Origin: Candidatus Polarisedimenticolaceae bacterium
Lineage (GTDB): Bacteria > Acidobacteriota > Polarisedimenticolia > Polarisedimenticolales > DASRJG01
Assembly (NCBI GenBank): GCA_036275915.1
Contig: DASUCV010000018.1
Location: 355,054 to 419,053 of the forward strand
Length of the DNA: 64,000 nt
Direction of reading: 5' to 3'
Positions 36,027 to 55,717 of the stretch are shown here, one piece after another. Position 1 is the first letter of the stretch. Each line of letters opens with the position of its first letter. The notes under the pieces were generated by a model. That model was not told the DNA's origin. It ran no database searches and was given only the letters and a program-made list of their open reading frames with translations. A program made the position numbers and the translations under genes.

Positions 36027-36692
36027 TCAGTAGTGGGACGGCGTGTAGTTGACGGACGTCTGCATCTTGACGAAGTACGCCTCACCGGGCGCCAAAGCGA
36101 AGACCGCGCCGGTGCCCTTGCGGCCCGTGTACGTCGAAAGGGTGTCGGTCGCCTTGAGGAACTTCTGAACGTTGGTGACATTGGCGAAGCCGATGTCGTC
36201 CATCAGGCCCTTCGCGTCCGCCGCCGTCTGGTGGTAGTTGTACGCGAAGAAACTCGTGCCCGAGTTCGACGTGCCGCCGCCCGCCTGCGAAAGGCTGTAG
36301 GCAACCGAAGGATCGTCCGAGCCGACGACGATGTAGTTGACCGTCGTCTGCATCTTGACGAAGTAGCCTTCACCCGCGGCCAGTGAGAAGACCGCGCCGG
36401 TGCCCTTGCGGCCCGTGTAGGTCTGAAGGGTGTCAGTCGCCTTGAGGAACTTCTGGATGTTCGTCACGTTGTTGAACGTGATGTCATCCATGAGGTTCTT
36501 GGCGTCCGCCATCCCCGTCTGCCGATTGTCCGGAAGCGCGAGCGTGTTCGTTCCGGAATTCGACGTGCCGCCCCCGGCCTGGCTCAACGTGTAGTTGAGC
36601 TTGAAGCCCATGTTGGAGGCGACGAGAGCGCTGCCGGTCAGCGCTACGGCGGTCACAACCGCCATCGCCCCGAAGAACGTCTTCTTGGTCAT
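36027..36692 (-). CDS. Secreted protein made of two tandem ~96-residue repeats
   Basis: The 221-residue protein has a signal peptide (about 1-25, start MTKKTFFGAMAVVTAVALTG) and two copies of one domain (about 29-124 and 125-221). Shared blocks are LSQAGGGTSNSGT, MADAKNLMDDI / AADAKGLMDDI, TGRKGTGAVF and GEGYFVKMQT / GEAYFVKMQT. GGAGGAG stands seven bases before the ATG. A promoter with an overlapping palindrome lies 85-110 bases upstream. I recognise no named family; repeats of this kind are seen in exported proteins. The first residues resemble those of the gene at 35134, so both signal peptides may share an origin. Confidence 0.78.
   Translation of the reverse strand: MTKKTFFGAMAVVTAVALTGSALVASNMGFKLNYTLSQAGGGTSNSGTNTLALPDNRQTGMADAKNLMDDITFNNVTNIQKFLKATDTLQTYTGRKGTGAVFSLAAGEGYFVKMQTTVNYIVVGSDDPSVAYSLSQAGGGTSNSGTSFFAYNYHQTAADAKGLMDDIGFANVTNVQKFLKATDTLSTYTGRKGTGAVFALAPGEAYFVKMQTSVNYTPSHY
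36099..36131. repeat. 33-bp direct repeat, copy 1 (inside the repeat protein gene)
   Basis: This segment is identical to 36387-36419, 288 bp away (96 codons, in frame). It encodes the YTGRKGTGAVF block. Exact DNA identity over 33 bp suggests a fairly recent duplication or gene conversion between the two domains. Confidence 0.85.
36387..36419. repeat. 33-bp direct repeat, copy 2 (inside the repeat protein gene)
   Basis: Second copy of the repeat at 36099-36131, in the same frame, encoding the matching block of the first protein domain. Confidence 0.85.
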
Positions 36693-37352: not shown

Positions 37353-37931
37353 TCAACGAGCCGGAATCTTTTTTTCCTGGAGCGCCTGCCGGAGGCGGTC
37401 CTTGGCAAGCCCGAGGTGCCGCCGGATGGTGATGGCGGTGATTCCGAGGACCCGAGCCGCCTCGTCCCGGTCGAGCCCTTCCATCTCGATGAGGACGAAA
37501 ACCGCGCGTTCCCGCTCCGTCAGGGTCTCGAGCGCCCCCTCGAGACGCCGGGCCAGGTCGAGCCGGTCGGCCGCCGAGAGGGAGGCCGGGGCGGTCTCCT
37601 CGACCGCGTCGTCCCAGGGGGCCTCCTCCCGCCGCTTCTGGTCCGACTGCCCCCTCCAGTCCAGGGCGGCGTTGGCCGAGACCTTGTACACCCACGACGC
37701 GAACGGCCGGCCCTTCTGGAAGCCGTCGAGGCCGCGGAAGAGCCGGAGAAAGACGTTCTGGGCGACGTCCTCGCGATCCGACACCGGCACTCCGAGCAAC
37801 CGGAGCACGCGGAGCACGCGTGCCTCGTGGCGCCGGAGAAGGGCCTCGAACGCACGGGCGTCCCCCGCGCGCGCCGCCTCGATCAGCGAGGCTTCGGACG
37901 CGTCGTCGTCAGAAAGGGCTCTTGTTGCCAC
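37353..37931 (-). CDS. ECF-type RNA polymerase sigma factor
   Basis: The 192-residue protein has region 2 (about 20-100: DREDVAQNVFLRLFRGLDGF; FASWVYKVSANAALDW) and region 4 (about 130-185: LTERERAVFVLIEMEGLDRD; EAARVLGITAITIRRHLGLA), with nothing else. It should direct RNA polymerase to a specific promoter set. The GTG at 37931 lies 23 bases inside the end of the C25 protease gene, so it is translated in tandem with that protease, an unusual link. Target promoters are unknown; the nearby secreted-protein operon and the peptide locus are candidates. Confidence 0.92.
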   Translation of the reverse strand: MATRALSDDDASEASLIEAARAGDARAFEALLRRHEARVLRVLRLLGVPVSDREDVAQNVFLRLFRGLDGFQKGRPFASWVYKVSANAALDWRGQSDQKRREEAPWDDAVEETAPASLSAADRLDLARRLEGALETLTERERAVFVLIEMEGLDRDEAARVLGITAITIRRHLGLAKDRLRQALQEKKIPAR

Positions 37932-40900
37932 GGGCGTCCACAGCGAGGACCGAATAGTACTGGCTCGCGGCGGGCGCGGTCACGCTGAATGAAGGGCTCG
38001 TCGGAGAGCCGAGGAGAGGCACCGTGCCGTTCTTGACGTCGGTGCGAGTGAAGGGGTGGTCGCTCGCGTAGACCTCGTAGTGCTGGATCGCGAGCGGGTT
38101 TCCGTCGAAGTCGGTCGTCACCGCCGGCCAGCTCAGGCCGAGGTTGTAGCCGCCGGAGCCGTCCGGCGTCTTCGAGAGCGTGAGCACGTCGATCCCGTTG
38201 GGGAGCTGATTGCCGAGGCCGCCGACGTTGCCGGAGGTGTCCACGGCGCGCACGAGCCAGTAGTAGTTGTTCGCGTCCGCCAGGATGCCGGTGTCGGTGA
38301 AGGTGGCGGCTGTCGGCGTGGCGATCCTGTTCCCGGGACCCGGGATGAAGTCGGGCGTCGTTCCCCGATAGACCTCGTAGTTCGCGACCGTCTCGGCCTT
38401 CCCGTAGATGTCGGTCGTCACCGCCGGCCACGTGAGCACGGCGCTCGTCCCCGACTTGTCGACGTGCAGCCCCGAGATGAACTCCGGCGAGCGCACGCCG
38501 CGCACGAAGGTCGGCGTCCCCTGCTGCTCCCCGGAATATCCGGAGGTGTGGCCCGAGGTGTTCGACGCGGTGATCGCGACGTAGTACGTCGTGCCGTTCG
38601 TCAGGCTCGTAAGCGTGTAGCTCGTCGCCTTCCCCGCGCTGCCCGAGAACGTGTAGGTGCCCGGCGCCGTTCCCCACCACACGGTGTAGTGGTCGAAGTC
38701 GGACTCGAGGTTCGCGGCCCACGAGAGGTTGAGCTTCCCGCCGGTCTCCGGGTCGGTGACCGTGAGGCCGGTCGGCGCCGCCGGCGATCCGGGGTTGAGC
38801 GGCGTCGCCTGGACGCAGTCCGGACCGTTGACGGCGCAATCGCTGTTGAAGTTCGACCAGCGGCTCTCGAACCCGCTCGTGTCCTCCGCGACGACGTAGT
38901 AGAGATAGCTCTTCGCGTTCGTGACCGTCGTGTCGCTGAACGACGTCGTCGTGAGGAGCGAGGCGATCTTCGTGTACCCCGGGATCGCCCCCACCGCACG
39001 GTAGACGTCGTACTTCGCCCCCGCCGTCGTGCTCGCCGTCCACGTGAGGTTGACGACCGCATTGCCCGCGGCCGCGACGAGCGCCGTCGCCGGGTTCACC
39101 GCAGGGAAGATGAGACGCGTCGAGGGGTCACCGAGCAGAACGTAGTTCTGGCACGCCTGCGCGGCGCCGAGCTGGCAGGCGAAGTTCGTGCCCACCGCGA
39201 CAGCGTTCCCGAGCATGCGCTCCTTGTACTTCCCGAAGAGGTCCTCGAACATCTGGTCGGAGATGTCCTGCGTCTGATAGCCGTCGGTCAGCCCGGAGGG
39301 CGCGAAGACGGCGATCGCACCGCCGCCGCTCCGTTTCAAGAAATCCTCGCCGAGCGTGACGTCGTTCGTGTCTTCGAAGCCGCCGGTGAGGCAATTGTGT
39401 GCGATGAGCCAGGGCTGCTTCGTGGCGTTCACGAGCCCGTTGACGTCGAAGATCGCGTTGGGCGGCGGGGGCCAGCCTTCGGCGAAGAACGCGTCGTCGG
39501 ACCAGACGTTGAAGTTCCCGTGGCCGACGTACTGCATGATCGAGGCGCCGTCGGAGATCCCGTCGGTGCCGTTGAGCGCCTTCTTGATGTCCGAGCGGAG
39601 CGACTCCGGCTGGCAGCTCGAAGGGTTCTGGTTGCAGTAGTCGGTCCAGTACCGCAGCGTCCGCGCGGTGTGCGGCGGGATCTTCATGTGGCTCTTCGCG
39701 AGGTCGTTCGTCGCCTCGAAATCGGCGGCCTCGTTCACGTCGTAGTTCTTGCCGCGGTCGGAGACGAAGAGGGCGTGGCGCCGCCAGTTGCCGGTCGGCG
39801 GATTCTGCTCGTACGCGAGGATCTTCTGGAGAACGATGTTCGTCTGCGCGTCGCTGCGCGTCGAGATGCGGCCCACCACGAGATCGGGTGTCGTGTCGGT
39901 GCCGGTGACGTCCATGAGGATCGAGTCGCTCGCGTAGTAGCCGAAGGCGGGGTCGTCCTTGAAGAGGATCTGCGTCGGCACGTAGCTGCTGAGCGGGACC
40001 GACGTGTCGTTGTACTTGTAGTCGTACGAGCCGTCGCCGATGAGGAGGACGAACGCCGGCTTTCGCCCCGACCAGCTCGCCATGGCATAGGCCATGAAGC
40101 TCTTGATCGCTTGGGGGGTGACGAGGCCGTCGCCGAACTCGTCGTAGACGTCCTGGATCATGACGACCTTCGACGTCAGGCCCTGGTTCGCGAGCTTCCA
40201 GCTCAGAAGCGAATTGAGCGTCGCCGTCGACGTGGCGCCGAGCGGCGTCGGGTGCGCGATGACGATGAGGTCGGCCTGGTTCGAAGGATCGCGTAGGGTC
40301 GTCGGAGGATCGGACGCGAAGTCCGCCGCGGCCGGGACCGCGATCGCGTTCGCTCCCGCCACGACGAAGCGCCGCGGCGTGCCGTCGGGAATCGACGGGT
40401 CGTTCGCAATGTGGAAACGCACGCTGAAGTTGCCGGCGGCCCCGCCGACCGTCCCTCCCGTGATCTTGACCGGGGAGGCGTTCGCGCTCGCGCCGACACG
40501 GCCGGTGACCTCCCAGACCTCGGGCGCGTTCGTCGCCAATCCCGTGACCTGGATCTCGGTGTCGCCGTCGGGCCAGTCGAAGGTCAAGGCGTCGCCCGTC
40601 GCCTGGAAGCTCCGCTTGTAGTGGATCTCGATGAAGTCGAGGATGATCTGGTTCTTGTACCCCGCCGATCCGGCGACGGCCAGCGCGTCGATCGTCACCT
40701 GAGCCGGGTCGCTGAGCGCCGCTCCCGAGCCGGGATAGGTCCACGTGAAGTCGTGCGTGTAGACCATGCGTCCGTCGAACGTGCCGTCGTCGTTGTTGGT
40801 CGCGAGGGTCGCGCTCGAGGCGTTCTTGAGCGTGATCCGCGTCTTGTGGTCGGACGCGGTCGTGTCTTCCGTGAGCCCGCGCAGGCGGACGAGCACCTCC

Positions 40901-42225
40901 GCCGGGTCGGTCGTCGTGGCGAGGCCGGGAAGCGGCACCGAGACGGTCCGGGTGATGCTCGCGGCCGGCGGGCCGACGACCGCAGGGTTCGACTCGGAAG
41001 GCGACCAGTACCACGGGTCGGCGCCGCCGAGGGGCCGGAACGCGTTGTCGGTCTCGAGATGCTGCACCGCGTCGAACTTCGTCGCCGGCGCCGAGAGATC
41101 CGGGGGCGCGCTGCGGGTCGCCAGACGCGCGCGGGCACCGGCCTCGGCGGTCAGGTAGTAGGCGTTCTCATCGGTGAAGTCGCGCGCCTCGTAGATGTTC
41201 GTCCCGCCGGGAAACTCGGTGTTGAGGATGGTCTTCGGCTCGTCGTCGAGCGGCTGTCCGTAGAACTCGATCCAGTCGCCGGAGTCGAGCTGGTCGTTCC
41301 CGTTGACGTCGTTGACGAGGATCGGGATCTCGTTCCCCCTCTCGGTCAGCTTGTACGTCGAGATCGGCTGCGTCTCGAACCCCGTCCCGTTGAGCTTGGT
41401 GAAGTCGAGGCGGACGATCCCGTATGCGCGAACTTTGACCTTGTAGCGGGGGCCCGCGAGCGGCGCGGCCGGTGCCGCCGCCATCGCCATCGCCTCCGGC
41501 GCGGTCCCGGTGCGGAACGTCGTCCCCTGCGCGTAGTTCGCGAACATCGACCGGTACTGATCTTCCGCGAGTGGGTCGAGCGCCGGCGCCGACCGTGCGC
41601 CCTCGTCGCCGTCGAAGGCGACGGTGACCTGGAACGAGCGCGCCACGCGGAGCCCGCGGATCCGCGGGTCGAACCGCACGGGCGTGACGACGACGTCGAC
41701 GTAGCGCTGATTGCGGAACGTTCCGACGTCGCCGAGCCGCGCGATCGCCGCCGGGAAAGGATCGTGTCCCTGGAAGATCGTCGCGTCGGGCTCGAGAACG
41801 GTGTCGCGACGCACGCGCGGACCATCCCCCACCGGCGCGGTCAGATCGGTCTCGGGGTCGAGCTGGGCCGAGACGCGGGGCACCGGGCGCGGCATGGTGC
41901 CCGGCATCGTGTCTTCTCGAGCGGCGCCGAGGATCAGGCGCGGTGTCGTCCCCTCGGGGATCGCCACGCGCACGACGTGGAACGGCAAGTCCGGGACGCC
42001 CGGACGGACCTGTCTTCCCGCGAATCCATCGAGCCGGATTTGCGTCGAGCCGTCGGGGTGACTCGACAGGAGGAGCGCCGGGGTCGTGACCTGAAAGGTG
42101 AAACTCGCTTTGTCACGAGCTTCTTCGATCGGCGCTACGAAAGACGACGGCGGGGCCGCGAAAGCGAGCCCCGCCGTAACTCCCGCCAAGAACCCCCAGA
42201 GGAAAACGCTCCTGGGAGCCCTCAT
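37909..42225 (-). CDS. Gingipain-type C25 cysteine protease with Fn3 tail
   Basis: The 1438-residue protein has a signal peptide (1-23), a long N-terminal propeptide and beta region (to about 640), a C25 peptidase domain (about 650-1040) and four fibronectin type III-like domains (about 1045-1438). The catalytic pair is visible: His near 899 in IMQYVGHGNFNVW and Cys near 945 in LIAHNCLTGGFED. C25 enzymes cut after Arg or Lys once matured. No type IX secretion C-terminal domain of the Bacteroidetes kind is evident. It starts 55 bases after the small peptide gene and overlaps the sigma factor gene. No clear ribosome binding site precedes the ATG. A likely role is cleaving the neighbouring peptide or surface proteins. 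Confidence 0.9.
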   Translation of the reverse strand: MRAPRSVFLWGFLAGVTAGLAFAAPPSSFVAPIEEARDKASFTFQVTTPALLLSSHPDGSTQIRLDGFAGRQVRPGVPDLPFHVVRVAIPEGTTPRLILGAAREDTMPGTMPRPVPRVSAQLDPETDLTAPVGDGPRVRRDTVLEPDATIFQGHDPFPAAIARLGDVGTFRNQRYVDVVVTPVRFDPRIRGLRVARSFQVTVAFDGDEGARSAPALDPLAEDQYRSMFANYAQGTTFRTGTAPEAMAMAAAPAAPLAGPRYKVKVRAYGIVRLDFTKLNGTGFETQPISTYKLTERGNEIPILVNDVNGNDQLDSGDWIEFYGQPLDDEPKTILNTEFPGGTNIYEARDFTDENAYYLTAEAGARARLATRSAPPDLSAPATKFDAVQHLETDNAFRPLGGADPWYWSPSESNPAVVGPPAASITRTVSVPLPGLATTTDPAEVLVRLRGLTEDTTASDHKTRITLKNASSATLATNNDDGTFDGRMVYTHDFTWTYPGSGAALSDPAQVTIDALAVAGSAGYKNQIILDFIEIHYKRSFQATGDALTFDWPDGDTEIQVTGLATNAPEVWEVTGRVGASANASPVKITGGTVGGAAGNFSVRFHIANDPSIPDGTPRRFVVAGANAIAVPAAADFASDPPTTLRDPSNQADLIVIAHPTPLGATSTATLNSLLSWKLANQGLTSKVVMIQDVYDEFGDGLVTPQAIKSFMAYAMASWSGRKPAFVLLIGDGSYDYKYNDTSVPLSSYVPTQILFKDDPAFGYYASDSILMDVTGTDTTPDLVVGRISTRSDAQTNIVLQKILAYEQNPPTGNWRRHALFVSDRGKNYDVNEAADFEATNDLAKSHMKIPPHTARTLRYWTDYCNQNPSSCQPESLRSDIKKALNGTDGISDGASIMQYVGHGNFNVWSDDAFFAEGWPPPPNAIFDVNGLVNATKQPWLIAHNCLTGGFEDTNDVTLGEDFLKRSGGGAIAVFAPSGLTDGYQTQDISDQMFEDLFGKYKERMLGNAVAVGTNFACQLGAAQACQNYVLLGDPSTRLIFPAVNPATALVAAAGNAVVNLTWTASTTAGAKYDVYRAVGAIPGYTKIASLLTTTSFSDTTVTNAKSYLYYVVAEDTSGFESRWSNFNSDCAVNGPDCVQATPLNPGSPAAPTGLTVTDPETGGKLNLSWAANLESDFDHYTVWWGTAPGTYTFSGSAGKATSYTLTSLTNGTTYYVAITASNTSGHTSGYSGEQQGTPTFVRGVRSPEFISGLHVDKSGTSAVLTWPAVTTDIYGKAETVANYEVYRGTTPDFIPGPGNRIATPTAATFTDTGILADANNYYWLVRAVDTSGNVGGLGNQLPNGIDVLTLSKTPDGSGGYNLGLSWPAVTTDFDGNPLAIQHYEVYASDHPFTRTDVKNGTVPLLGSPTSPSFSVTAPAASQYYSVLAVDARGNKSPF

Positions 42226-42280: not shown

Positions 42281-42394
42281 TCAGCTCTGGATCGGTCCGG
42301 CGCCGCAGCTGTCGTCTGCCTTGGCGCAAGCCACTGCACGAGCCTCGAGCTTCTCGGTGTGAATGATCGCCGGACGTTCGTAGGTCTTCCTCAT
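42281..42394 (-). CDS. 37-residue two-cysteine peptide, candidate RiPP precursor
   Basis: This short gene encodes 37 residues. It starts MRKTYERP, has a charged leader-like part to about residue 19, and ends in a core-like segment ARAVACAKADDSC followed by GAGPIQS. Cys23 and Cys30 are the only cysteines. A strong site GGGGGAGGA stands three bases before the ATG, and a good sigma-70 promoter lies about 90 bases upstream. It sits between a radical SAM/SPASM gene (with a PqqD-like gene) and a C25 protease, which is the setting expected for a ribosomally made, enzyme-modified peptide. Codon use is ordinary for this genome. Possible modifications are thioether (sactipeptide or ranthipeptide) or C-C crosslinks. 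Its product is not identified; precursor status is inferred from context. Confidence 0.8.
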   Translation of the reverse strand: MRKTYERPAIIHTEKLEARAVACAKADDSCGAGPIQS

Positions 42395-42479
42395 GTCCTC
42401 CCCCTGAATGGAGCGCGTGTTGACCCAAAAAAAGTGCAGTCTTTCAATCCCGCCCGGCTACCGTGCCGGAAGCGCCTTG

Positions 42480-42508
42480 GTTATACGGTGCGAGGGTATC
42501 GTTTTCAA
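42480..42508 (-). promoter_or_regulatory. Sigma-70 promoter of the small peptide gene
   Basis: On the minus strand TTGAAA (42508-42503), exactly 17 bases, then TATAAC (42485-42480). Both boxes match the consensus at five of six positions. Transcription would start near 42473, about 80 bases before the peptide ATG. It separates peptide expression from that of the modifying enzymes. Confidence 0.68.
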
Positions 42509-42516
42509 CCACTTTT

Positions 42517-43596
42517 TCAATGCCCCGGTTCGCCGATCTGGAGCAATTCGTAAGAGCGGCGGACCGATTTCGCATTCAGGTCGGCCTGCGGGTAGATCCC
42601 GAGCGGGTCCCCCACCTGCTTTTCGGCCACACCGAGACAGAACTGGAAGTAGGCGCCGTTCTCGTGCTTGTTGAGCTTCGTACGCGCATCGACGGCGAGC
42701 TGCCGGACCTCGTTCAGGACCGGATTCGTTCCCCAGATGTCGTTGAACGAATTGATCTCGAGGACATTCGCGATCGCCCGGCGGAAGGCCACGCAGGGCA
42801 GGATGTTCCCGTACGGGTCGATCGTGAATCCGCTCCGCCCGGTGCCGCAGTTCGCCTCGACGCCGTCGGCGGCGCAATGGTTCTGGCGCGGCGGTTTCTT
42901 GCCGTGGTGGAGGTCGAGGTACCACTCGCCCCAGTACTTCTGGAGGAAGTCGTCGTCGGGACGAAGGGCGAGTGGATCGAGGTTCCCGTCGTCCTTGGGG
43001 GTGATCACGGCGTCGAACGTGGTGTGGCAGCCGAGGCTGTCCGCAAGATCGCGGATCTGGAACAGCTCGTGCTGGTTGAGCTTCGTGATCGGCACCTTGA
43101 GCTCGACCTTGACGCCGGCGTCGCGCAGGTTCCGGATCCCCTGCACCGTCTTGTCGAACGAGCCCTTGATCCGCGTCAGCGCATCGTGCGTCTCGCCCCT
43201 CGCGCCGTGGATCGAGATCTCGACCTCCATCGGCTTGAGGTCGACGACGCGCTTCGCCATCGCCTTGTCGGCGAGGAGGTAGCCGTTCGTGTAGATGCGC
43301 AGCGCCATGCCGAGGCGGCGCGCCTCGGCGGCGATCTTGAAGAAATCCTTGTGGCAGAGCGCCTCGCCGCCGGTGAGCGTGAGGTAGAGGACGCCGAACT
43401 CGGAGACCTTGCGAAGCGTTTCGAAAATCTCCGGCGTCGTCATCTCGCGCCGGCCTTCGGGCGAGTTGTAGCAGAACGTGCAGAGGTGGTTGCAGCGGAA
43501 TGTCAGCTCGAACTGCGCCGACAGCGGGATCGCATCGGCGAAGGCCTTCTCAACGAGTCTGCGATAGGGGCTGGGCTGCTCGGCGGCTGCGCTCAT
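42517..43596 (-). CDS. Radical SAM/SPASM peptide-modifying enzyme (PqqE/MftC type)
   Basis: The 359-residue protein has the radical SAM cluster motif CNHLCTFC (Cys35, 39, 42), LTLTGGEAL, IYTNGYLL and EISIHGA, then a C-terminal SPASM/twitch-like region with Cys241, 250, 268 and 320 around GFTIDPYGNILPC. Four cysteines would hold one auxiliary iron-sulfur cluster rather than the two of full SPASM enzymes. Relatives (PqqE, MftC, sactisynthases) make C-C, thioether or decarboxylated products in short precursor peptides with help from a PqqD-type protein. The ATG overlaps the PqqD-like stop as ATGA. The substrate is probably the 37-residue peptide encoded just downstream. Confidence 0.93.
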   Translation of the reverse strand: MSAAAEQPSPYRRLVEKAFADAIPLSAQFELTFRCNHLCTFCYNSPEGRREMTTPEIFETLRKVSEFGVLYLTLTGGEALCHKDFFKIAAEARRLGMALRIYTNGYLLADKAMAKRVVDLKPMEVEISIHGARGETHDALTRIKGSFDKTVQGIRNLRDAGVKVELKVPITKLNQHELFQIRDLADSLGCHTTFDAVITPKDDGNLDPLALRPDDDFLQKYWGEWYLDLHHGKKPPRQNHCAADGVEANCGTGRSGFTIDPYGNILPCVAFRRAIANVLEINSFNDIWGTNPVLNEVRQLAVDARTKLNKHENGAYFQFCLGVAEKQVGDPLGIYPQADLNAKSVRRSYELLQIGEPGH

Positions 43597-43877
43597 GTCT
43601 CCAACATCCCTTCCCGTTGCAGGTCGTGCAGGAACGAGACGACGCCTTCCCGGGCCTCGGTTTCGTCGATCTCGAACTCGGCCATGACCGCCTCTTTCAG
43701 CGCGTTCAGGTCCCGCGTCCCGTCCAACAGGGAAAATACGACGATCCCGACGGGATTCAAGACCTTGACCTCGGCGCGGCCGGGAAGGACGACGAGACCG
43801 CCGTCATCGCCGATCTTGCGAAACGCCGTGTCGGGATGCCGGCGTGGCTTGGCCGGAAGGGTCTCGAGATCGGTCAC
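43593..43877 (-). CDS. PqqD-like peptide chaperone (RiPP recognition element)
   Basis: The 94-residue protein carries the PqqD fold pattern: RKIGDDGGLVVLPGRAEVKV, LNPVGIVVFSLLDGTRDLN, then the helical part EAVMAEFEIDETEAREGVVSFL. PqqD-type domains bind the leader of a precursor peptide and present it to the radical SAM partner. I chose the GTG at 43877 with GGAGA five bases upstream; the frame runs far upstream into another gene without a plausible start. A promoter lies just before it. It is the first gene of the peptide locus and is coupled to the radical SAM gene. Confidence 0.9.
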   Translation of the reverse strand: MTDLETLPAKPRRHPDTAFRKIGDDGGLVVLPGRAEVKVLNPVGIVVFSLLDGTRDLNALKEAVMAEFEIDETEAREGVVSFLHDLQREGMLET

Positions 43878-43945: not shown

Positions 43946-46189
43946 TCAGTGCGCCGGCGCCGCCTGGGAAAGCTTGTCGGCATAAGCGGTTCCGTCGGGG
44001 GTCCCGAGAGCCGACAACGCGCGGGCGCACTCCCCCGCTCCCTGGGTGTCTCCGGCCATCGTGAGCGCGAGGCCGAGGAGGTAGAGCGCCCGCTCCGACT
44101 CCGGATCGCGCCGCACCGCTTCCCGGAGCTCGCCGACCGCCTCCTGCAGCTTCCCGGCGCGCACGAGCGCGAGGCCGAGGTTCTGCCGCGCCGGTGCCAG
44201 GAACGGGTCGAGCGTCAGTGCCCGATGAAGGGCGTCGACGCCGCCGTCGAGATCGCCGCGGCGGACGAGGATCGTTCCCAGGTTGTACCAGCCCTCGGCA
44301 TCGCCTTCTCCGGCGAGCGTCCGGAAGATCGAGATCGCCTCGTCGTCGCGGCCGGCCTCGGCCAGCGCCGCTCCGAGCGTGGCGCGCACCTCCTGCGACC
44401 CGGGCTCGCGCGCGAGCCTCGCACGCTGCGCCGCGATGACGAGGTCGAGGAGCGCCGCGTAGGACGAGGGCTCGCCGAGCGGGAGGAAGCGGAGCCTGGG
44501 GAACCGCGCGGCTGCTTTTTCCGGCCCTTGCGGCAGCCTCGCGACGATCACGTCGCCTTCGCCCGTCTCCGCGAACCAAGCCGCAGACGACGCCGCGTGC
44601 GCTTGCTCGGCGGTCCACAACAAGGCGTCGTCGTCGCTGCGGTAGAGCAGATGGACCGGATGCTCGGACCAGAGATCGACCCCCGCCTGCGCCGCATACT
44701 CGATCGTCGCTTGGCGGTCGTGCGCGAGATATCGGAACGCGTTCGGCGCCGAGTGCGCGACCACCGCGTCGGTCAAGCCGAGCCGGTCGAGGACGCGCAG
44801 GTTCGAGTCATACGGGATCGCGCCGACGGCGCTGATCGCGATGTGGGTGTCCGCGGGCAGCGTGCCACCGGCGACGAGCTGCGCGAGCCGCCTCCCTTCG
44901 GGGGCGACGGTCGCGAGGAAGAGCGCGTGTTCTTCTTGGCGGACACCGGCGAGCCGCGAGGTCGTGAGGCGGAGGAGCTTCCGGTGTGCCTCGCCCAGGC
45001 TGCGGAGCCCCGGCCACCGCAGGAACGGATCCCTCGCGGGGTCGAGGAACGCCGCGCGCTCCTGGGGAGCACCCATGCCGGGAAATCCCGGGCTGTAGTC
45101 CCGCGGGAACTGTCGGTGAGATTCCCAAGGAAGGATGACGAGACCGAGCGCGATCGCCGACGCGTACGCGGCGACCGCCCAACGCGGGAAGGTCATCGAG
45201 GCGAGCCCGCGCGCGATCAAGAGGAAGAGCAGCGGGAAGTAGAGATCGAGGGGCCGGTACTCGAAGTGGTCGCCGCCGATCGATGCGATGTAGATCGCGT
45301 GCGGAACGATGACGGCGCCGATCACCAGCGGGATCTCGGAGCGCCGCTCGCGGACCTCTGCGCCGATTCCCGCGACGAGCGGCGGGATCCAAAGCCACGC
45401 GGCGTACTCGAGAGCGCAGCACGCGACGTACGCGCCGCCCATCCCCCACCACGCGCGGCCTCCGACCTTCGCGTAGTACGTGTTGGGCAGCCACGCCCCG
45501 TAATACGCGTGACGAAAGAGGAGATGCCCGCCGACGATCGCGCCGAACACCCCGGCGTGGAGGACGGCATCGGCGATCCTGAGCCGCCGCCGCACGACCA
45601 AGACCGCGCCTGCGGCCGCCATCGCGGCCCCGCCGATGAGCATCCCGTCGGGACGCGTCAGCGCGGCGAGCCCGAGGAGCACGGCGGCCCACGGGACGCG
45701 CGCGCGGCTCCCGGAATCCGCCGCGGCGACGCCGTCGATGAGACACAGGACGCCGGCGACGGTGAGCACCTCGAAAAGGCGCGTCTCGAGCCCGCTCGTC
45801 GACCAGACCGCGACACTTCGCGTGAGCGCCATCCACGCCGCGGGAAGGACGACGAGGAACGGTGACGCGCGCGGCGGCAGGAAGCGCACGCTCGCCGAGA
45901 CGACGAGCCCCCACAGCACGATCGTGAGCAGGATCGAGAGGACCGGTGCGACGTGCTCGGGCCGGAGTCCCACGCGGTCGAGCGCCGCGAGCACCACGAC
46001 CCACAGGAAGTTCGTGTACCCCTCGACCCGCTCCCCGCCCGGATTGAAGACGAGGCCGGCGCCGGAGGCCAGGTTCTTCGCGTAGCGGAACGAGATGAAG
46101 GCGTCGTCGCACAGGAAGCGGTAGACCGCCGCGTGCGCGAGGAGCACCGCGAGCGTGACGAGGAGGGCCGCGCGCAGGCGCCAGGTCAT
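43946..46189 (-). CDS. GT-C glycosyltransferase-like membrane protein with TPR tail
   Basis: The 747-residue protein has about ten membrane helices (to about 375), a periplasmic region (about 375-580) and TPR repeats (about 590-725: EGWYNLGTILVRRGDLDGG; ARQNLGLALVRAGKLQEA). The first loop reads FLCDDAFISFRYAKNLASG and NPGGERVEGYTNFLWV, a pattern shared with AftB-like and related GT-C arabinosyl/mannosyltransferases. The donor should be a polyprenyl-phosphate sugar; the acceptor is unknown. Start and upstream stop overlap as ATGA. Confidence 0.8.
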   Translation of the reverse strand: MTWRLRAALLVTLAVLLAHAAVYRFLCDDAFISFRYAKNLASGAGLVFNPGGERVEGYTNFLWVVVLAALDRVGLRPEHVAPVLSILLTIVLWGLVVSASVRFLPPRASPFLVVLPAAWMALTRSVAVWSTSGLETRLFEVLTVAGVLCLIDGVAAADSGSRARVPWAAVLLGLAALTRPDGMLIGGAAMAAAGAVLVVRRRLRIADAVLHAGVFGAIVGGHLLFRHAYYGAWLPNTYYAKVGGRAWWGMGGAYVACCALEYAAWLWIPPLVAGIGAEVRERRSEIPLVIGAVIVPHAIYIASIGGDHFEYRPLDLYFPLLFLLIARGLASMTFPRWAVAAYASAIALGLVILPWESHRQFPRDYSPGFPGMGAPQERAAFLDPARDPFLRWPGLRSLGEAHRKLLRLTTSRLAGVRQEEHALFLATVAPEGRRLAQLVAGGTLPADTHIAISAVGAIPYDSNLRVLDRLGLTDAVVAHSAPNAFRYLAHDRQATIEYAAQAGVDLWSEHPVHLLYRSDDDALLWTAEQAHAASSAAWFAETGEGDVIVARLPQGPEKAAARFPRLRFLPLGEPSSYAALLDLVIAAQRARLAREPGSQEVRATLGAALAEAGRDDEAISIFRTLAGEGDAEGWYNLGTILVRRGDLDGGVDALHRALTLDPFLAPARQNLGLALVRAGKLQEAVGELREAVRRDPESERALYLLGLALTMAGDTQGAGECARALSALGTPDGTAYADKLSQAAPAH

Positions 46190-51730: not shown

Positions 51731-53983
51731 GTGAGACGCCTCGCGGTCGTTCCCGTCTTCGCCCTCTCCACTTTTCTCGCCGCGGCGCTCCTCTTCCTCG
51801 TGGAGCCGATGGTGGGGAAGATGGTCCTGCCCCTCCTCGGCGGGAGCGCCTCGGTCTGGACGACGTGCATGCTCTTCTTCCAGGCCGGCCTGCTCGCAGG
51901 CTACGCGTACGCGCATCTCCTCGGGACGAGGCTTCCGGCGCGCGCGCAGGCCGCGGTGCATCTCGCGGTCGTGCTCCTCGCGTTCCTCGCCCTCCCGCTC
52001 TCGCGCGGCGTCCTGGCCCCCCCGCAGGGCTCCGGTGCTCCCGTCGCCTGGCTCCTCGGCGCGCTGACCGTTCTCGTCGGCGCGCCGTTCTTCGCGCTCG
52101 CGGCGACCGGGCCGCTCCTCCAGCGCTGGCTCCACGGTGCGTCTCCGGCGCGCGATCCTTACTTCCTCTATGCGGCGAGCAATCTGGGAAGCTTCTCCGG
52201 CCTCCTCCTCTACCCGCTCGTCGTCGAGCGTCTCCTGCCGATCGAAGGGACGCACGGATCGTGGAGCCAGAGCCGCCTCTTCTCCACCGGCTTCGCCGTC
52301 TTCGCGGCGGTGATCCTCGCCGCGGGAATCCTCGCGCGCACCGCCGGCCGCGAGGCGCCGGTGAGAACCGAGGCACCCTCGTGGCGCCGCCGCGGCCTCT
52401 GGGTTCTCCTGGCGTTCATCCCCTCGAGCGCCGTTCTCGGCGTCACGCAGTACGTGACCGCGGAGATCGCTCCTGTTCCGCTGCTGTGGGTCGTTCCGCT
52501 GGCGATCTACCTCGCGACGTTCGTCGTCGCGTTCTCGCCGCGCGTCACGATCGGGCCGTGGTCCGGTCTCGCGCTCGCCGTCACGACCGCATCGGTGGCC
52601 GCGTGCATGATGCCGGCGGTCCGCTCGGGCGGGCACCTGCTCGTCGTCGTCCACTTCGCCGCCCTCGCCGCCGTCGGGCTCGCGCTCCACGGCCGCCTCG
52701 CCGCGACGCGGCCGCAGCCGGGGCGGCTCACCGAGTTCTATCTCTGGATCGCGCTCGGCGGCGTCGCCGGCGGAGTCTTCAACGCCGCCGTGGCGCCGCT
52801 CGTCTTCAAGTCGATCGCCGAGTATCCGCTCGCCCTCGTCCTCGCCGCCCTCGTGCGGCCGCTCTGGCCTGACGATCGCGCGGAGCCTCGCCGGCCGCTC
52901 TCGTACGCCTTCGACCTCGTCGTCCCGCTCGCGATCGCCGGGTTCGCGATCGTCGCCCGCGGGACCGAGACCGCGTCGCCCGTGGCGCCCGGCTGGCCCG
53001 CGATGACCGTTCAGGCGATCGTGCCGGCGCTCCTGTGCCTCGGCGCCGCCGGATGGCGCGTGCGCTTCGCGCTCTCGCTCGGGGCGCTCCTCCTCGTCGG
53101 GTGGTGGCAGACCGCGGCCCCGCAGGCGAGCCTCGACCGCGAGCGCACGTTCTACGGCGTCCATCGCGTCGTCCCGAGCTACGGGCCCTGGTTTCGCCGG
53201 GGCGACTCCGAATCGCCGGCGCGCGTCGAGTTCCACATGCTCATCCACGGCGCGACGCGACACGGCCTCCAGGCGGTCGATCCGGACCGGAGGAGGACCC
53301 CGACAACGTACTACCACCGCTCGGGGCCGCTCGGTCAGGCATGGGACGCGCTCGCGCTCGATGGGTCGAAGGAGATCGGAATCGTCGGCCTCGGCGCGGG
53401 GACGATCGCGGCGTACGGCCACGCGGGCCAGCATTTCACCTACTTCGAGATCGACCCCGCCGTGGTACGGATCGCCCGCGACCCGCTCTTCTTCACCTAT
53501 CTCGCCGATTCTGCCGCGCGGGTCGACGTCACCGTCGGCGACGGCCGCCTCTCCCTCGCACGAACGGCGGACGGCGCCTTCGACGTCCTCGTCCTCGACG
53601 CGTTCAGCTCGGACGCGATCCCCGTCCACCTCCTGACGCGCGAGGCCGTCGATCTCGCCCTACGGAAGCTCGCGCCCGACGGCGTGCTCCTCATCCATCT
53701 CACGAATCATTACCTGCGCCTCGAGGAGGTCGTCGACGCGATCGCGCGCGATCTCCACGCGAGCGCGTTTCTCGAAGGCGACCGCACGATGACCGACGCC
53801 TGGACGATCGAGGGGAAGGAGCCGTCGACGTGGGCGATCCTCGCGCGCTCGCGCGAGCGGCTCGCCCCGCTCGCCGCCGATCCGCGCTGGACGCCGATGC
53901 CGCTGCCCCCGCATCCCGGAGCGAAGGACGTGCTCTGGACCGACGACCGGTCCGACCTCTTCACCGTCCTCCGGCACTTCTGA
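51731..53983 (+). CDS. Membrane SpeE-like (spermidine synthase-type) fusion
   Basis: The 750-residue protein has about 13 membrane helices (to about 470) and a Rossmann SAM/aminopropyltransferase-like domain (about 540-730: GIVGLGAGTIAAYGHAG; YFEIDPAVVRIARDP; VLVLDAFSSDAIPVHLL). The motif LDAFSSDAIP keeps the acidic residues lost in the fusion at 27397, so the two proteins may differ in activity. There is no TPR tail. Substrate unproven. The GTG at 51731 is the only sensible start. It converges on the HPr-kinase-like gene with a 23-bp overlap. Confidence 0.85.
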   Translation: MRRLAVVPVFALSTFLAAALLFLVEPMVGKMVLPLLGGSASVWTTCMLFFQAGLLAGYAYAHLLGTRLPARAQAAVHLAVVLLAFLALPLSRGVLAPPQGSGAPVAWLLGALTVLVGAPFFALAATGPLLQRWLHGASPARDPYFLYAASNLGSFSGLLLYPLVVERLLPIEGTHGSWSQSRLFSTGFAVFAAVILAAGILARTAGREAPVRTEAPSWRRRGLWVLLAFIPSSAVLGVTQYVTAEIAPVPLLWVVPLAIYLATFVVAFSPRVTIGPWSGLALAVTTASVAACMMPAVRSGGHLLVVVHFAALAAVGLALHGRLAATRPQPGRLTEFYLWIALGGVAGGVFNAAVAPLVFKSIAEYPLALVLAALVRPLWPDDRAEPRRPLSYAFDLVVPLAIAGFAIVARGTETASPVAPGWPAMTVQAIVPALLCLGAAGWRVRFALSLGALLLVGWWQTAAPQASLDRERTFYGVHRVVPSYGPWFRRGDSESPARVEFHMLIHGATRHGLQAVDPDRRRTPTTYYHRSGPLGQAWDALALDGSKEIGIVGLGAGTIAAYGHAGQHFTYFEIDPAVVRIARDPLFFTYLADSAARVDVTVGDGRLSLARTADGAFDVLVLDAFSSDAIPVHLLTREAVDLALRKLAPDGVLLIHLTNHYLRLEEVVDAIARDLHASAFLEGDRTMTDAWTIEGKEPSTWAILARSRERLAPLAADPRWTPMPLPPHPGAKDVLWTDDRSDLFTVLRHF

Positions 53984-54782
53984 TCAGGAGCGGGACGAAC
54001 GACGCGTCCCTCGCGAACGCGAGCGTTCGATGAGGAACGTCGTGGACCAGGCGGTCGAGGAGACGGTCGAGCGCTCCGCCGCTTCCCCATCCGTCGACGG
54101 CGAACGGCGCGTTGGCGGCGAGACGCGCCTGCGTCTTGATCGCGGGCTCTTCGGCCAGAGACGCCGCCTTCGCGTGCGAGGCCGCGAGCACCGCGGCGAG
54201 CGGCCACCGTCCCGGCACGCGCAGCGTCGACGCCTCCGCGCGGAACGGGCAGGCGAGCGCCTCGCGCCGGTGGACGAGCACGAGATCGTCGCCCAGGACC
54301 TCGGCCCCCGCCTCTCGCGCGAGCGAGGCCCACGTCGATTTTCCGGTGCCTTCTCCCCCGACGAGAACGAACGCGCGCCCGTCGAGCACGATCCCCGCGG
54401 CGTGGAGGAGCACGGCGTCCATCTCGGGCAGGCGCCACGCGATCGCCGCCATGAGCAGGTTGACGAGCCCCGCGGCCTGGAGCTCGGTCGTCGTCGCCAC
54501 GAGGCAGATCGTGATCGCGCCGGAGCGCGAGACGACCGCGGTGCCCTGATCGATCGCGAACGAGGCGCCGCCGTCGGCGATCTCGGACCGCATGGTCTTC
54601 GGCGCGAACGGGTGCACGCGCGCCGAAGGAGGCTCGGCCTCGACGGTGACGGAGAAGACGGGCTCTCCCTGGAGCGCCGTGACGAATCGTCCCCACCGGT
54701 GCGCGAGCGCAGCACCGAGAAGATCGGAGAGGCCGGTCACGCGAACGCCGATCCCCGAGAGATCGACGTCGAGGCGGGTCAC
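53961..54782 (-). CDS. HPr kinase-like P-loop protein, copy 1
   Basis: The 273-residue protein has the HPrK core: His127 in LLHAAGIVLDGRA, P-loop GGEGTGKST (142-150) and the Asp pair 165-166 in VLGDDLVLV. The N-terminal 120 residues match no domain I know. True HPr kinase has a hexameric C-terminal core and PTS partners, none of which appear here, so another substrate is likely. HPrK-like enzymes also occur in some peptide-biosynthesis clusters. The GTG overlaps the stop of copy 2 as GTGA. Confidence 0.8.
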   Translation of the reverse strand: MTRLDVDLSGIGVRVTGLSDLLGAALAHRWGRFVTALQGEPVFSVTVEAEPPSARVHPFAPKTMRSEIADGGASFAIDQGTAVVSRSGAITICLVATTTELQAAGLVNLLMAAIAWRLPEMDAVLLHAAGIVLDGRAFVLVGGEGTGKSTWASLAREAGAEVLGDDLVLVHRREALACPFRAEASTLRVPGRWPLAAVLAASHAKAASLAEEPAIKTQARLAANAPFAVDGWGSGGALDRLLDRLVHDVPHRTLAFARDASFVPLLIRSAGGR

Positions 54783-55717
54783 AGCCCCGCCGCGTCGATC
54801 GCGTCCCAGTAGCTGTCGTCCTTGCGGAAGACGAGATGCCGGAGCGGCACCTTCGAAAAGGCCGCTTCGACCGAAGCGAAGAGATCGGGGCGCGCGCCGA
54901 ACGCCTCGGCGACGAAGGTCAGGTTGCCGACGAGCTGCCCGAAGACGATCGCGCGCGGCGCGTCCTTCACCTCGGCCGCGGGACCTTTCAGGATCCGGAA
55001 CGCCGCGGCGAGCGGGAACCGGCCGACGACGGGCGGGCCCTCCTCGTAGGTCCCGCGGAACGGGCTGCCGACGACGTCGAGGCCTCCACCGGGCCGCGGG
55101 AGCAGCAGCGTGAGGTCGTCGCTCACGACGGTCGCGCGATCGGTCACCGCGGAGAGCGTCGACTTCCCCGCCCCGGACTCGCCGAAGAACAAGTACGCGC
55201 GCCCGTTCCGCACGGCGCTCGCGCCGTGGACGAGCGCCCCGCCGCGGGACGCCGCGTCCCACGCGACCGCGCAACGGAGGTAGTTCTCGATGGCGCGGAG
55301 GTCCGGCTCCACGCCGCCCGACGCGAGGACGAGCCGTCCGTCACGCGCGGCGGTATCGAACCAGCCGGCGACGCGGAGGCCGAGATAGCGGACACGCGTT
55401 CCGTCGCAGGCGATCCAGATGGGGTTGAACTCGAGCTCTCCCGCAGGCTCGATGAAGTGCGGGCGCTCGTCGATGCCGAAGTGCACGGCGATCGGCGCAT
55501 GCGCGGCCGCGGCGTACGGGCCGTACCGCGCACGAAGCGCCTCCGCACGCTCCTCGTCGATCCCGACGAGCGCGAGCCCGACCGCGTCGAGCGCGAGGTC
55601 GAAGCGCGCGCCTCCCGCTGCCGGCCACTCCCGGTCGAAGAAGCTCATCGGCGGCGGCTCGCCGTGGCGTGCCGGATACGACTTGCCGCCCTTGGAGCTG
55701 TACCGGCTCGTCGTCAC
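54779..55717 (-). CDS. HPr kinase-like P-loop protein, copy 2
   Basis: The 312-residue protein has the same HPrK core: His164 in [15 protein letters not shown]-loop GESGAGKST (179-187) and Asp200-Asp201 in VSDDLTLL. The N-terminal region differs from copy 1. The GTG at 55717 overlaps the uvrB stop as GTGA and adds 23 residues ([14 protein letters not shown]) before an ATG at 55648 that is an alternative start. The two copies are adjacent and co-translated, so they may act as a pair. The link to uvrB is probably only transcriptional. Confidence 0.8.

Follow-up and report, generated by a model that had tools for sequence, protein, structure and literature searches.

The described systems closest to the locus reported here are the sactipeptide and ranthipeptide systems of SkfB, StsB/StsC and PapB (freyrasin), in which a radical SAM maturase acts on a cysteine-bearing core and the leader is recognised by an RRE. 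The sactisynthase SkfB has a Twitch domain holding one auxiliary cluster (PMC6231123); its RRE is fused, whereas the cassette described below has a discrete PqqD-like protein and a C25 peptidase. An HprK-like kinase accompanies a PqqD-like protein and a radical SAM enzyme in the SynChlorMet (ScmC/ScmD/ScmE/ScmF) and HprK_rel_A/PqqD_rel_X cassettes of NCBIfam. Lasso systems with a B1 protein and an HPr-kinase-like kinase share with our locus the YxxP leader motif and the discrete PqqD-like protein, but they employ a B2 protease and an Asn-synthetase-like cyclase where we find a radical SAM enzyme and a two-Cys core. The lasso kinases described earlier than BsfK act on the C-terminal Ser of their peptides, which they phosphorylate (PMC10368454). 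PqqD-family domains from various RiPP classes, StsC and lasso B1 among them, bind motifs of the form W/Y/LxxP/L/I (PMC12710340). PQQ biosynthesis (PqqA/PqqD/PqqE) likewise pairs a PqqD-type chaperone with a radical SAM enzyme on a short precursor. PorU, the type IX secretion sortase, and the gingipains are C25 peptidases with a catalytic His and Cys and a propeptide domain.

We analysed a 64,000-nucleotide stretch (the window) from a 4.5 Mb, 98% complete genome of a Candidatus Polarisedimenticolaceae bacterium (Acidobacteriota), which contains what is probably a RiPP biosynthesis cassette for a previously undescribed precursor family. Its features are as follows.

43593-43877, minus strand: PqqD-like discrete RiPP recognition protein, 94 aa, GTG start (Pfam PqqD, 1.4e-11)
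42517-43596, minus strand: radical SAM enzyme, 359 aa (Pfam Radical_SAM, 1.5e-23), in 4-base ATGA overlap with the PqqD-like gene
42395-42516, minus strand: gap of 122 bases from the radical SAM gene to the peptide gene, with Shine-Dalgarno-like GGGGGAGGA and no sigma-70-like site
42281-42394, minus strand: precursor peptide, 37 aa, MRKTYERPAIIHTEKLEARAVACAKADDSCGAGPIQS, of a conserved family under purifying selection
37909-42225, minus strand: peptidase C25 (gingipain/PorU family), 1438 aa, by Pfam; in relatives, too, it adjoins the peptide gene on the same strand
53961-54782, minus strand: HprK-like P-loop kinase gene, a possible phosphorylating partner (26.5 bits to HprK_rel_A, far under the 200-bit cut-off)
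54779-55648, minus strand: second HprK/PEPCK-like P-loop gene, in ATGA overlap with the first (22.6 bits to ScmC, below cut-off)

The PqqD-like, radical SAM and peptide genes lie where a first-pass annotation had placed them, with the ATGA overlap, the PqqD-like identity and the 37-residue peptide with Cys23 and Cys30 behind GGGGGAGGA all confirmed; that annotation had overlooked the C25 gene, which starts 55 bases downstream of the peptide stop, and the HprK-like pair (53961-55648). It had also given the peptide its own promoter, which we did not recover: a sigma-70 consensus scan, covering that promoter type only, placed its sole site upstream of PqqD and none between the radical SAM gene and the peptide. 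The genome holds a single copy of the peptide and a single C25 peptidase; the radical SAM enzyme has one close match in it, and all others score at most 51 bits. The gene directly upstream of PqqD (43946-46189, minus strand) encodes a TPR protein whose N-terminal part resembles a membrane protein, and related loci often have in this position either a TPR protein or a conserved protein of 600 residues. Downstream of the C25 gene is a 221-aa protein of a conserved family (36027-36692, minus strand), also present in three related loci (L043, L045, L046), with a signal-peptide-like N-terminus and only sub-threshold Pfam matches. Among the neighbouring genes searched with Pfam, which are part of the window genes, no lasso B2 protease or cyclase was found.

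The radical SAM enzyme carries the CX3CX2C motif at C35, C39 and C42, and beyond this only C250, C268 and C320, in the C-terminal domain, are conserved. The cysteine set of a full SPASM domain, with two auxiliary clusters, is absent, and by its sequence the C-terminal domain is truncated and Twitch-like. Of the earlier label 'radical SAM/SPASM', the first half stands; the second corresponds to a marginal match (21.9 bits, cut-off 21.5) with three conserved auxiliary cysteines. SkfB, likewise Twitch-type, and PqqE headed a profile search of the PDB, with SkfB the best match, and a Foldseek search with the predicted structure (pLDDT 93.7) ranked BlsE, SkfB, PqqE and SuiB. Matches to curated families all fell below cut-off: StsB was the top NCBIfam match of the enzyme, yet at 117.4 of 625 bits, with SkfB at 74.8 of 300 and ScmE at 96.4 of 400, and ScmD was the top match of the PqqD-like protein at 30.8 of 100. 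Kinases in related loci match ScmC, and here too all SynChlorMet-type scores are below the curated cut-offs. The best solved relative of the PqqD-like protein is the lasso B1 protein TfuB1 (6jx3).

The peptide is a real gene under purifying selection. Of 60 relatives, 35 have it, the identity being 81-86% for most members of the same order and down to 43% elsewhere, and a profile search recovered it in 60 of 396 Acidobacteriota genomes, spread over 46 of 210 genera. Named public-genome relatives include Candidatus Polarisedimenticola svalbardensis and Acidobacteria bacterium Mor1, and a search of genome contigs gave four close loci, all Acidobacteria-type. In an alignment of 39 relatives, Y5, P8, A20 and C23 are invariant and K3, E14, E17, R19, G33, P34 and S37 nearly so. 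Across 14 species pairs pN/pS was 0.00-0.18, the value of 0.00 belonging to a pair with identical peptides, so the ratio near 1 that would mark an unconserved frame is not seen.

The window peptide consists of a predicted leader with a YxxP motif (Tyr5-Pro8), the predicted two-Cys core CAKADDSCGAGPIQS and a C-terminal Ser. Each of the 71 distinct relatives carries YxxP in a leader free of Cys, followed by a core with exactly two Cys, counts that partly reflect the profile by which the sequences were selected, as it contains those features; a terminal Ser is present in 66 of the 71. The YxxP motif is of the type that PqqD-family domains bind (PMC12710340), suggesting that the leader is the part recognised. 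A Cys-x3-Asp motif is present in 33 of the 71 cores, the Asp thus not being universal. We weighed cleavage at a basic site in the leader and rejected it, since Arg19 is not retained in distant members. The peptide matched no curated family in NCBIfam or Pfam, with only weak, sub-cut-off DUF5972 hits, which in the window peptide cover its residues 2-11; this supports the earlier placement of the peptide outside any named class. Sibling YxxP peptides lie beside radical SAM, PqqD and HprK-like genes, and mostly also a C25 gene, at further loci (L157-L159, L161, L163-L165, L167, L172, L187, L151-L153); two such families are LRPEEAVLG-x-CK...C...C and APG-x-QTLG-x-GCK, and three sibling peptides searched gave no convincing curated family match. 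The precursor family looks like a genuine, previously undescribed one within a known kind of RiPP system. We found no paper describing the cassette in a literature search largely without subscription journals.

A short, conserved precursor gene linked to genes for a radical SAM enzyme and a recognition protein is the arrangement expected of a RiPP locus, and the linkage extends across the phylum. Among the 396 genomes, the radical SAM subfamily (E<=1e-100) occurs in 52 of the 60 with the peptide vs. 7 of the 336 others (p 1.7e-48, a value that overstates the evidence because related genomes are not independent), and the order PqqD-radical SAM-peptide-C25 is kept in genomes of the same order and of other classes. 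Several of the eight peptide genomes lacking a strong radical SAM hit are incomplete assemblies; in one (G021) the copy is cut short where the contig ends, and another (G295) gives two partial hits. Of the seven genomes with the enzyme and no peptide, four carry a related YxxP/two-Cys peptide (L107, L166, L173/L174, L190), in one the locus sits on a contig of 3.8 kb (L169), and two lack an explanation; radical SAM loci without this peptide thus do little to weaken the proposed pairing, as most hold a related peptide or are truncated. Homologues of the peptide mostly, though not always, share a genome with this radical SAM family (52 of 60). Extra or orphan copies without an adjoining radical SAM gene were found at L041, L058-L061, L064, L066-L070 and L073, some of them with histidine kinase, PilZ, EAL or HD-domain genes as neighbours. 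One group of families has the peptide about 12-15 kb away from the PqqD-radical SAM-C25 set, where it follows genes for an ECF sigma factor, surface proteins and an anti-sigma factor, seemingly in the same operon. A conserved run at L048-L051 and L057 comprises C25, an ECF sigma factor, a thrombospondin-3 protein, an FG-GAP protein, a zf-HC2 anti-sigma factor, two secreted-looking proteins and the peptide. In viral contigs the radical SAM profile recovered remote radical SAM proteins alone, at <=32% identity. Taken from co-occurrence, phylum-wide adjacency and the YxxP leader motif, the peptide is very probably the substrate of this radical SAM enzyme and its PqqD-like partner, as the first-pass annotation had proposed.

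The adjacent peptidase belongs to family C25 (Pfam 239.8 bits against a cut-off of 23, 7.3e-71) and comprises an N-terminal signal-peptide-like hydrophobic stretch, a propeptide domain, a catalytic domain with His902 and Cys945, and an fn3 domain. Its best PDB match is PorU (6za2); it scores below the cut-off of the NCBIfam PorU model (208.8 of 420 bits) and, unlike PorU and the gingipains, is encoded with a RiPP cassette in Acidobacteriota. Its structure model was too poor for comparison (mean pLDDT 63.5). The catalytic residues are retained across linked C25 copies (His in 61 of 61, Cys in 60 of 61). C25 is a frequent partner of the precursor family: a C25 gene is present in 32 of 65 peptide loci, in all 32 on the same strand, and in 49 of 60 peptide genomes vs. 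86 of 336 others (p 1.9e-16, likewise overstated by relatedness). No C25 match was found in the remaining 11 of the 60, so peptide and C25 are not obligate partners. Some C25-free loci have a signal-peptidase/S24-like gene instead, and in three of one family (L139, L140, L174) signal-peptidase/S24-like and HprK-like genes stand between the peptide and PqqD, these being mostly weak matches. Counting against joint action of the two, the C25 protein seems to carry a signal peptide and the precursor does not, and no transporter came to light.

In 63 of 85 loci an HprK-like gene is found no more than 2.5 kb from the radical SAM gene; the set is not random, as part of it (L151-L190) was chosen for a nearby C25 gene. 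The kinase gene adjoins PqqD in many relatives; the pair in the window, which matches curated families weakly and below cut-offs, is about 10 kb upstream. As the lasso kinases target a C-terminal Ser in known cases (PMC10368454), the terminal Ser of the peptide is a plausible kinase target. We put the chances that the HprK-like kinase acts on the peptide at about even.

The reading we consider likely is that the PqqD-like protein binds the YxxP leader and so offers the core CAKADDSCGAGPIQS to the Twitch-type radical SAM enzyme. This enzyme would most likely use the two invariant Cys to form a cross-link, or two of them. Our first guess is a thioether, of sactionine or ranthionine type; the Cys pattern, with Cys-x3-Asp in the 33 cores that have it, is compatible with this, and thioether chemistry could as readily prove right as wrong. 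Tyr, Trp and Phe are absent from the window core and any of them is present in just 16 of the 71 cores, which argues against cyclophane or Glu-Tyr chemistry. The C25 peptidase, catalytically intact by sequence, would then process the product or act with it outside the cytoplasm, and the conserved C-terminal Ser may be phosphorylated by the HprK-like kinase, which most relatives encode close by. That C25 is specifically the processing peptidase for the peptide is a balanced proposition.

The biological role of the peptide is open to other readings, of which one has the modified peptide regulate the adjacent C25 or inhibit it as a substrate mimic. A Lys-bearing ring between the two Cys would offer a P1 residue to a trypsin-like C25, in the manner of canonical inhibitor loops: Lys or Arg stands between the Cys in 67 of the 71 peptides, followed by Ala, Ser or Gly in 47, and at the two loci with two C25-peptide pairs beside a single radical SAM gene (L077, L133) every C25 has its own peptide. 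Peptides from C25-free genomes (L139-L141) nevertheless retain the Lys, which may therefore serve the maturase or another partner, and for this reason we downgrade the inhibitor role to an unlikely one. Alternatively, the peptide could function without C25, as an antimicrobial or signalling RiPP, and have the protease as a neighbour through shared regulation alone. The C25-free peptide genomes and the orphan copies beside histidine kinase, PilZ and EAL genes would fit such independence, but the same-strand linkage to C25 extends across several classes. Antimicrobial RiPP cores tend to diversify, whereas leader and core here evolve slowly under purifying selection, and we consider a C25-independent role improbable. 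Such slow change in the core points to housekeeping or regulation and away from warfare.

A PqqD-like protein, a radical SAM enzyme and a peptidase beside a highly conserved precursor are also the common parts of a pathway to a small redox cofactor of the PQQ or mycofactocin type. The precursor differs from that of PQQ, however, the enzyme is Twitch-like, the scores fall far short of the curated models (PqqE 78.4 of 381 bits, PqqD 24.7 of 46, mycofactocin maturase 98.4 of 265), and the scarcity of aromatic residues in the cores counts against it as well, making a cofactor precursor very unlikely. That the 37-codon frame, short as it is, arose by chance is refuted by its conservation and purifying selection in dozens of genomes, and we give this next to no credence.

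Returning to the RiPP cassette, the literature searched, from which subscription journals were largely absent, held no precedent for RiPP chemistry linked to C25 peptidases: we found nothing joining RiPPs, with or without radical SAM, to peptidase C25, nothing joining radical SAM and PqqD to gingipain, and nothing on Polarisedimenticolia with RiPP or on peptidase family C25 with Acidobacteri. A radical SAM subfamily spread over Acidobacteriota now has a testable substrate, recognition protein and enzyme. In its fullest form, which we put forward tentatively and hold to be rather doubtful, the cassette would represent a phylum-wide RiPP family in which a cross-linked, C-terminally phosphorylated two-Cys peptide is the dedicated partner (substrate, activator or inhibitor) of a surface C25 peptidase. 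If this were true, RiPPs would control or mature surface proteolysis in these bacteria, a new use for such peptides.
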